Source: Pelagibacteraceae bacterium AG-404-P07
GTDB taxonomy: Bacteria; Pseudomonadota; Alphaproteobacteria; Pelagibacterales; Pelagibacteraceae
DNA length: 51,249 bases
NCBI GenBank assembly: GCA_003216235.1
Contig: QCJE01000007.1
Coordinates: forward strand, 1 to 51,249
Direction of reading: 5' to 3'
A program made the position numbers and the translations under genes. The notes beneath the pieces were generated by a model. The model was not told where the DNA came from and made no database searches. It saw only the letters and a list, made by a program, of their open reading frames with translations. Of this stretch, positions 18,039 to 19,613 are shown piece after piece (the first letter of the stretch is position 1; each line of letters starts with the position of its first letter).

Positions 18039-18551
18039 ATGTTTTACGATTTAAAAGATAAAAAACCAAAAAACTCTGGCGAAAATTGGGTAGCTCCTAA
18101 TGCAACTATAATAGGCGATGTTACTTTAGAAAAGAACTCTAGTATTTGGTTTAATGCAACCTTAAGAGGAGATATTGAAAATATTCATATTGGTGAAGGA
18201 TCAAATGTTCAAGATGGAAGTGTTTTGCATACTGACCCAGGTTATCCATTAAAAATTGGAAAGAATGTTACTGTTGGTCATATGGTTATGCTTCATGGAT
18301 GCACGATAGGGGACAATAGTTTAATTGGAATTGGTGCAGTGATTCTAAATAATGCTAAGATTGGAAAGAATTGTATCATTGGTGCAAAAGCTTTAATTAC
18401 AGAAAATAAAGAGATACCAGATAACTCTTTAGTGATTGGTGCACCAGGAAAAGTTGTTAGAGAGGTTACTGAGGAAGAAAAGAAAGCTGTAGTAGAAAAT
18501 ACAAAACATTATCAAGATAATTGGAAAAAATATTCTAAATCAATTTTTTAA
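18039..18551 (+). CDS. Gamma-class carbonic anhydrase family protein
   Basis: A left-handed beta-helix protein of 170 residues, built of hexapeptide repeats such as [30 protein letters not shown] and [10 protein letters not shown]. The three zinc or iron ligands of the family are at His64 (SVLHTDPG), His81 (VGHMVMLHG) and His86. Asn and Gln at NVQDGS fit the active-site framework. It resembles YrdA/PaaY-type trimers. Activity as a true carbonic anhydrase is not guaranteed in this subgroup. It is divergent from the redoxin gene by 20 bases and converges on a small exported protein gene, with the GC-rich element between. Confidence 0.9.
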
Positions 18552-18583
18552 GGGGCTTTCTGTTGCCAGGTGCCCCGAACCCC
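18552..18583. other. GC-rich structured element between convergent genes
   Basis: A 32-base island with 22 G/C, against about 30 percent GC around it. It starts one base after the carbonic anhydrase stop and ends seven bases before the stop of the convergent small-protein gene. GGGGC at 18552-18556 can pair with GCCCC at 18572-18576, or its GGGG with CCCC at 18580-18583, so two mutually exclusive stems are possible. No T-run follows on either strand, which argues against a standard intrinsic terminator. It may be a 3'-end stabiliser, a small RNA piece or a protein-binding site. I cannot assign it to a known family. Confidence 0.6.
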
Positions 18584-18590
18584 AAAGAAA

Positions 18591-18797
18591 TTATCCTTTA
18601 AATAATTCTAAAGCTTTATTTAATAATTCTTCTGACTTAGCATGATCGCCACTTTTATGTGCATTCATACCCGCATCTCTTAATTCTTGAGCCTCTGCAA
18701 TTTTAGCATCAATATTTTTTGCCATCATCGGACAAGAACCTGCATATGCTGATCCAGAAAATAAAATTATAAAAGCTATGATTAAAAATTTTTTCAT
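18591..18797 (-). CDS. Small exported helical protein with a CPMM motif
   Basis: 68 residues with a clear signal peptide: MKKFLIIAFIILFSGSAYA, predicted cut after Ala19. The mature 49 residues start GSCPMMAKNIDAKIAEAQEL and form two helices with a TPR-like look (AGMNAHKSGDHAKSEELLNKA). The single Cys in a CPMM context could bind a metal or be a lipidation-independent thiol; this is inference. The ribosome site AAAGGA lies upstream of the ATG. It is 13 bases downstream of a 40-residue membrane peptide gene on the same strand, and seven bases upstream of the GC-rich element. Function unknown, though small periplasmic proteins of this style are found in other alphaproteobacteria. Confidence 0.75.
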   Translation of the reverse strand: MKKFLIIAFIILFSGSAYAGSCPMMAKNIDAKIAEAQELRDAGMNAHKSGDHAKSEELLNKALELFKG

Positions 18798-18810
18798 AAT
18801 TTTCCTTTAA

Positions 18811-18933
18811 TTAAAACCCCATATTCGACCAATTGTCTTTATCATTATACATTTCTAATTCTTTTTTTGAGATAGGCCTAAAAAGTACAAAACCAACTAC
18901 AATTGCTAAAGTTATTAGGATTATTGTTTCCAT
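18811..18933 (-). CDS. Very small single-pass membrane protein (40 residues)
   Basis: An ATG at 18933 opens a 40-codon frame ending TAA at 18811. The product begins METIILITLAIVVGFVLFRP, one transmembrane helix, followed by the charged segment ISKKELEMYNDKDNWSNMGF. This hydrophobic-then-amphipathic design is that of a genuine small membrane protein, and the 80-base gap upstream and 13-base gap downstream fit a gene. There is no obvious Shine-Dalgarno site. It lies between the PNPOx-like gene and the small exported protein gene on the same strand. Function unknown; conservation in relatives would settle whether it is translated. Confidence 0.65.
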   Translation of the reverse strand: METIILITLAIVVGFVLFRPISKKELEMYNDKDNWSNMGF

Positions 18934-19013
18934 AAAATTTATATAATTTAAAAATTTTTTTAAACACTGCGATATTTAGACTTATTACCCATAATAATAA
19001 TTAGATTCATTTG

Positions 19014-19613
19014 TTATGGAACTAGCCAAGCGTTTTTATTAGTCTCTAAATCAAATTTAGCTCTTCGATGTCCTTTGGCTGCAAGATAAAGCCATTCAAT
19101 AGATTTAATCTTGCATTTAATAACAGTAAAGTTTTTATAACCTTCTTCACTTTGTTCCATGGTGTAATCAAAATCTTCTAATTTAGATATCATTCCAGAA
19201 GTTGGATTTTCTGAAGTAGTTCCTGGAGGGCTATCAGTTAAATAACAACGTCTGCTTATATGTTGAGTTTTTTTCCATGATTCTTCAGTTGTAGAATTTT
19301 GATTATTAACTTCACATTCTACTTTTACTCTTAATTGTATCTTTTCCTCTTTATCGTAGAAAACTAGAGAGGCATTATTATTTTTTTTTAGAATATCCAC
19401 CTTTGGAGATCTTAAATCAGTATGAAATTGTAATAGATTGTTTGCTCTATCTGATTTACGTAAAACAACAATTCTACCATCTACTTCATCTTGATGAGCA
19501 CATATGAAAACAGGAATTCTAAATGGTGAACCCCTGTTAGCCACGGCATCATCTAGCATAGACCAATACTTATTTTGAATTTCTTCTAGGTTTTCATAGT
19601 ATGCTGGCTGCAT
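19014..19613 (-). CDS. Pyridoxamine 5'-phosphate oxidase-like FMN-binding protein
   Basis: 199 residues with a split-barrel flavin fold. RIVVLRKSDRANNLLQFHTDLRSPKV is the FMN-phosphate region, at about residues 48-73. SLVFYDKEEKIQLRVKVECE follows. The C-terminal EWLYLAAKGHRRAKFD matches the conserved WLxL..GHRRAxF ending of the Alr4036-like and PNPOx-related families. A true PdxH has a longer conserved C-terminal dimerisation domain, not seen here, so I call it PNPOx-like rather than pdxH. It is three bases downstream of a beta-hydroxyacid dehydrogenase gene, so the two are cotranscribed. Confidence 0.82.
   Translation of the reverse strand: MQPAYYENLEEIQNKYWSMLDDAVANRGSPFRIPVFICAHQDEVDGRIVVLRKSDRANNLLQFHTDLRSPKVDILKKNNNASLVFYDKEEKIQLRVKVECEVNNQNSTTEESWKKTQHISRRCYLTDSPPGTTSENPTSGMISKLEDFDYTMEQSEEGYKNFTVIKCKIKSIEWLYLAAKGHRRAKFDLETNKNAWLVP

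Follow-up and report, generated by a model that had tools for sequence, protein, structure and literature searches.

SAR11 bacteria (Pelagibacteraceae) are among the most abundant bacteria of the sea and have small, streamlined genomes. Systems with which a mobile gene unit of this group can be compared include integrons, whose attC sites contain the core boxes RYYYAAC and GTTRRRY, and dif modules with their Xer/dif sites. Among the described elements, genomic islands are known to integrate at tmRNA genes, as stated in passages of one paper (PMC11915505), while the tycheposons of Prochlorococcus are described, in parts of another, as elements of 4–200 kb with tRNA genes at their borders and a tyrosine recombinase (PMC10872708). 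For SAR11, a 2007 comparison of two isolates reports 62 'gene indels' in core regions, and the passages of that paper dealing with hypervariable regions place an integrase gene in HVR2, give attC sites as absent from these regions and leave unsettled the mechanism of the many gene insertions by which strains differ (PMC2217521). P. ubique is also reported, in a portion of a further paper, to be without a dif/Xer system (PMC2731167). No SAR11 cassettes of the kind presented here are described in the literature covered, which comprised titles and abstract openings, with preprints and most subscription papers outside its scope.

The window (the whole stretch of 51,249 bases that was analysed, with a GC content of 29.5%) contains a GC-rich island of 32 bases (GGGGTTCGGGGCACCTGGCAACAGAAAGCCCC; minus strand, positions 18552–18583). 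As judged from sequence comparison, this island is very probably both a site of site-specific recombination, originating in the 3'-terminal hairpin of SAR11 tmRNA, and one edge of a mobile cassette; this cassette, comprising the gene of a 68-aa protein and an ORF of 40 aa, would have entered exactly at the junction of two convergent genes. In agreement with the original prediction, 22 of its 32 bases are G or C, no other 32-mer start in the window reaches this number, and the island lies between the stop codons of a plus-strand gene (18039–18551) and a minus-strand gene (18591–18797). It is single in the window at ≤3 mismatches and has no counterpart in 100 dinucleotide shuffles. RNA folding also returns the GGGGC/GCCCC stem that had been proposed, lengthened by CTG/CAG, on both strands (−13.2 kcal/mol on the minus strand, −13.6 kcal/mol on the plus strand), and a T-run is absent from 18552–18583 on either strand, so that the pattern of an intrinsic terminator, a GC hairpin followed by a T-run, is not present. 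The arrangement GGGGCnnCTG...CAGnnnGCCCC may correspond to inverted recombinase arms around a short centre. The shared 21-bp core placed on the locus map (CACCTGGCAACAGAAAGCCCC; minus strand, 18552–18572) is one base away from the genus consensus (CACCTGGCAACAGAACGCCCC, 121 copies).

The genome of the window encodes a complete permuted tmRNA on contig C29 (Rfam alpha_tmRNA, RF01849, 217.4 bits), whose 3' end is identical to the minus-strand island at 29 of 32 bases. The island itself scores 29.6 bits against RF01849, below the gathering score of 50, with only the 3' end well aligned; the small RNA suggested earlier is therefore not borne out, and a complete tmRNA gene is likewise ruled out, as the 3'-terminal part alone is present. 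Two further copies of the island in the rest of the assembly (78.9% complete) are both located on C29, one being the tmRNA's own 3' end and the other lying 1.64 kb beyond it. Copies of the tmRNA class are the same at all 21 core positions (41 of 41), the exception being genome G036, whose unusual tmRNA end has the core CACCGGGTAACAG and the left flank AGAAGCACGGTC. Preserved GC had been taken as a sign of selection, possibly for a protein-binding site, and both ideas fit a recombination site, which inherited its stem from a real RNA, the tmRNA 3' end, and is presumably bound by a recombinase.

In comparison with relatives G073, G226 and G244, the window contains an insertion of 466 bp (18552–19017), as read from the junction sequences and BLAST. 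On one side, the 170-aa hexapeptide-repeat gene of the ORF list (18039–18551, plus strand), which we take to be gamma-carbonic-anhydrase-like ('CA'), has its stop codon abutting the site, and on the other side, the stop codon of a 199-aa gene (19014–19613, minus strand; ORF and junction comparison) adjoins the far end of the insertion. The stop codons of these two genes overlap in the three relatives (..TTTTTTAAGGAAC.. in G073 and G226, GGCAC in G244), and both are retained in the window. The insertion begins with the site at one edge, followed by the gene of a 68-aa small secreted-type protein (MKKFLIIAF...SCPMMAK...; 18591–18797, minus strand), assigned as cargo from its ORF and its homologues with the site, and by a 40-aa ORF (METIILITLAIVVGFVLFRP...; 18811–18933, minus strand), read from the sequence as a second cargo. 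The 40-aa ORF has a membrane-type N-terminus. A second copy of the site was not found at the far edge of the 466-bp insertion, and a single copy would be expected if the target was siteless and the crossover took place at the CCCC edge. As it is single and one base off the consensus, the window copy may be inert.

Homologues of the 68-aa gene connect this locus with others. Among the best 12 loci obtained from 300 genus genomes, one of them the window itself, the site lies beside the 68-aa gene in every case; two (G140 and G156) are at the window locus, and in the other nine neither of the flanking genes was seen within reach. The CA gene and the site are separated by a 270-aa methyltransferase-like gene in G140 and by a 433-aa oxidase-like gene in G156 (both named by eye), and as no second copy lies by the CA gene in either genome, neither is an ordinary two-site cassette. 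A relative of the 40-aa ORF occurs at the window locus of G206, where the site is absent, so the 466 bp may have arrived in two steps. DNA like the 40-aa ORF region maps within 2 kb of the tmRNA in G037 and G064. In the first relatives compared (L002, L003, L005 and L006), no site was found at the CA-gene junction, and other genes sit there. The original prediction was to be doubted if the element matched a known terminator or repeat family, or if close relatives lacked it; the first applies by half, since the island matches a tmRNA end, and the outcome of the second is mixed, the junction being without the site in three relatives and carrying it together with the 68-aa gene in two. Upstream of the 68-aa gene, the motif GTGTGACACTCTG or a near form is found in 8 of 17 loci (L093, L094, L096, L098, L099, L100, L107 and L108) and is absent in the window; it is possibly a regulator site.

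Elsewhere in SAR11, the site (21–25 bp) recurs behind tmRNA and some other genes. Of 61 genus genomes, 49 contain CACCTGGCAACAGAA at ≤1 mismatch and none contains the reversed control pattern, and a longer site pattern is present in 162 of 300 genomes (controls, 0), both counts taking in the tmRNA's own copy, which is expected once per genome. A distal form (ACAAAGTTYGGGGCACCTGGCAACAGAACGCC) is found in 75 stretches among 84,980 species genomes, all of them titled Pelagibacteraceae or Pelagibacterales. Copies outside tmRNA often form series of the same orientation with genes in between, and the genes preceding proximal copies include tmRNA, the 68-aa gene, and RNase HI and PNPase as named by eye. 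Sites are found repeatedly at the 3' ends of these RNase HI and PNPase genes (L225, L239, L240, L088, L150, L156, L158; L232, L233), with bounded cargo in L225, L232, L233, L239 and L240.

Between neighbouring copies of the same orientation at most 9 kb apart, 47 segments of 139–6270 bp (median 1154 bp) were delimited in 33 of 80 fetched loci, a non-random sample picked where searches placed copies or tmRNA genes, and a few of the segment ends may be false under the permissive matching used (≤5 mismatches). A simple ORF caller assigns 109 ORFs to these segments, some of them surely spurious, which fall into 97 clusters with 89 singletons and at most four members, and 87 of the 109 are antisense to the site. 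The 14 cargo proteins scanned include type I restriction-modification, a candidate defence protein (PADLOC PDC-S11), a GIY-YIG protein, an HATPase with a sigma-70-region-4/MzaA-like partner, a trypsin-like protein and a weak exostosin-like match below the cut-off, while four of ten cargo proteins are without any Pfam match. Otherwise unlike cassette proteins in L081, L083, L227, L228, L233, L238 and L240 open with similar signal peptides (for example MKKLLGIIILGLLLSGNAYA and MKKLSLYIFLVLMWCNVGFA), as though a common leader module were in use.

The same cassette can be followed into different surroundings. Genomes G022 and G027 have in common a 342-bp unit with a 68-aa gene, which is 97% identical and ends at sites, being located behind tmRNA in G022 and behind another copy of the site in G027; with its sites, 353 of 364 alignment columns are identical, and between the 200-bp flanks no match falls below E 0.17. 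An empty junction is seen in G059, where the tmRNA end runs into the nadA region. In G037, the corresponding position is occupied by a 1.6-kb segment with a 481-aa gene between the tmRNA copy and a distal copy, behind which the G059 flank resumes (405 bp including the site, 92.3% identity; proximal repeat, 27 bp). A separate array of five copies in G036 has the unusual core of that genome (CACCGGGTAACAG) exactly in three copies and one base off in two, and the left flank of its tmRNA in four of the five. Seven groups of copies have a common 12-base right flank, and in four of these seven the left flanks are of different kinds. At the level of sequence comparison, these genomes demonstrate repeated same-orientation copies bounding diverse cargo, a near-identical cassette in two contexts, and empty as well as occupied sites; neither a circular cassette nor active excision was seen in them. 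Cassettes would move via recombination between the short sites, probably as circles, and their targets may be the tmRNA end, earlier cassettes, giving rise to arrays, or the final codons of a small number of other genes. An insertion would leave the tmRNA end intact, since it is restored by the site.

Some copies stand alone, with no visible partner, behind genes such as RNase HI, as would suit a dispersed short repeat (REP/MITE-like) moving alone. Such a repeat is hardly credible as the explanation, since copies enclose genes as cargo, the 342-bp cassette is mobile and the window locus contains a unit of 466 bp.

The flanks of the copies bear on another reading, in which the site is a classical attachment-site scar left by phages or integrative islands with a tmRNA-specific integrase of their own. 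Of the 47 segments, 28 have the motif CAAAGTT (≤1 mismatch) on the left of the distal copy and 9 have it on the left of the proximal copy, one copy acting in arrays as both distal and proximal, and three recurrent arms are found further left in copies chosen by that motif. These recurrent left arms on many distal copies, together with the known use of tmRNA genes by genomic islands (part of PMC11915505), favour an attachment scar, which is nevertheless very improbable, as the bounded segments have a median of only 1.15 kb and no listed integrase shares a contig with a fetched array among 61 genomes. The virus collections point the same way. Exact core matches in IMG/VR are confined to eight contigs (L112–L119), all with an ARAGORN tmRNA call, and one 60-base query gave no match in 50,697 phage records. 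One of the eight tmRNA-bearing contigs is 242 kb long. The sequence AAGTTYGGGGCACCTGG occurs in three IMG/VR contigs, each time within a large ORF and without the remaining site, which looks like chance, and the distal-arm pattern has no match in IMG/VR. In these collections, therefore, nothing speaks for a viral origin of the site, which was rejected: the core matches are all in tmRNA-bearing contigs and the others are chance-like.

The hairpin may also act at the RNA level. Among 17 homologues of the 68-aa gene, taken from 20 loci, the site directly follows the stop codon in eight (the window included, and one copy decayed), and an ordinary terminator-like hairpin, recognized by eye, takes its place in four; with the site or an ordinary hairpin right behind its homologues, the 68-aa gene possibly has the site as its terminator as well. 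In 30 tmRNA loci with 31 sites, five T within 10 nt are present at 7 of the sites, and in loci lacking a downstream cassette the hairpin may thus serve as the ssrA terminator. The stem of the tmRNA is real, as it shows a paired change between GGGAG..CTCCC in four tmRNA ends of a sister family and GGGGC..GCCCC in those of the window's family. All these features, and the position directly behind stop codons, would suit a terminator or 3'-end RNA element, that is, a tmRNA hairpin reused behind other genes to end transcripts and spread by gene conversion. This alternative is unlikely: the window site is without a T-run, the letters of loop and stem are conserved in the tmRNA-class copies beyond the need of a terminator, the site is where neighbours are exchanged, and copies enclose cargo. 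The transcript end envisaged in the original prediction thus agrees with the hairpins and T-runs and leaves the swapped neighbours unexplained; a secondary terminator role besides recombination is possible. A tmRNA-derived cassette boundary is well supported, and it forms the firm part of the interpretation, while the enzyme and an integron-like way of working are the interesting part and have the status of candidates.

No recombinase or integrase gene was seen within the cassettes, either in the profile scan of 14 cargo proteins or in the integrase listing of 61 genomes, and movement would therefore need an enzyme in trans. In 117 genomes of the order, 64 from the window's family (f1) and 53 from the sister family (f2), the latter being less complete overall, 59 of 64 f1 and 0 of 53 f2 genomes contain a 317-aa Cre/Xer-like tyrosine recombinase, and 36 of 64 versus 0 of 53 contain more than one copy of a 15-mer of the site, the two distributions being in essence one phylogenetic split. 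Among the f2 genomes, 40 have the 15-mer exactly once (CACCGGGCAACAGAA) and 13 show none, and decayed f2 copies would be missed because the f2 copies already spend the single mismatch allowed. The recombinase is absent from four f1 genomes that are at least 95% complete, which have two copies (G047), two copies (G327), one copy (G389) and no copy (G345) of the site; G395 has the recombinase and no site copy. No recombinase was found in the window's own genome (G000, 78.9% complete). Within 1.5 kb on each side of the recombinase gene in 30 loci, no site-like sequence was found (best, 10–12 mismatches in 25), and an ogt-like motif lies near the gene in 32 of 33 loci.

Six aligned f1 recombinases have the invariant residues R158, K184, H265, R268, H291 and Y300, which we take to be the catalytic residues. 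Pfam Phage_integrase matches exactly one protein in 52 of the 64 f1 genomes, more than one in 8 and none in 4, whereas the 53 f2 genomes have two matches (36), one (13), three (2) or none (2), and their matches are mostly far stronger. Two f2 genomes that were checked contain proteins with XerD- and XerC-like scores just below the equivalog cut-offs; three f1 recombinases reach 59–80 bits on the XerC/XerD models, and one f1 recombinase shows a weak match to XerC-like, XerD and Cre structures. The f1 genomes thus seem to be without canonical XerC/XerD, and canonical dif at ≤3 mismatches was not found in 6 genomes. From its co-occurrence with the site by family, the conserved Cre/Xer-like tyrosine recombinase of the window's family is the leading candidate for the enzyme acting on the site.

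It is a serious, though tentative, possibility that Pelagibacteraceae run an analogue of the integron, in which a single chromosomal Cre/Xer-like recombinase takes up small cassettes, lines them up in arrays and spreads them at copies of the host tmRNA 3' end. If so, this analogue would be a main source of variation in SAR11 gene content, and the same enzyme may replace Xer in the resolution of chromosome dimers, which bears on how Pelagibacter copes without a dif/Xer system. A tmRNA-derived cassette system would also provide a testable mechanism for the gene insertions of SAR11.

Among the known systems, Cre/loxP and Xer/dif resemble the SAR11 system in their short sites with inverted arms and in the weak similarity of the f1 recombinase to XerC-like, XerD and Cre proteins, but differ in that the SAR11 site is GC-rich and derived from tmRNA, with no canonical dif in the six genomes. 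Like the SAR11 cassettes, the tycheposons of Prochlorococcus carry cargo in a marine bacterium with a streamlined genome and have a link to a structural RNA gene; they differ, according to parts of PMC10872708, in their size of 4–200 kb, their tRNA borders and their tyrosine recombinase. Islands inserted at tmRNA genes have in common with the SAR11 cassettes the end of the tmRNA gene as a target that is restored; a direct repeat on both sides with an empty relative is found at the tmRNA locus of G037 compared with G059, and the window locus has one copy. However, the SAR11 segments are of 0.1–6.3 kb, stand in arrays without an integrase seen in them, and are associated with sites that also occur at the ends of RNase HI, PNPase and other genes (names by eye). 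Identity with integron attC sites is ruled out, as the attC motif is found in 1 of 122 sites and in 2 of 122 random segments, and three f1 recombinases score 25–31 bits against the integron integrase model TIGR02249 (cut-off 265), which counts only if this recombinase is the enzyme. Integrons (IntI/attC) further differ in that the SAR11 site is a tmRNA 3' end, with cargo mostly antisense to it and several dispersed loci. The likeness to integrons lies in arrays of short, highly diverse cassettes with one kind of site in one orientation, where no recombinase is seen inside the cassettes and a chromosomal tyrosine recombinase is available; arrays and mobility are represented by the 47 bounded segments, the 89 singleton clusters and one cassette in two contexts, together with a candidate enzyme.
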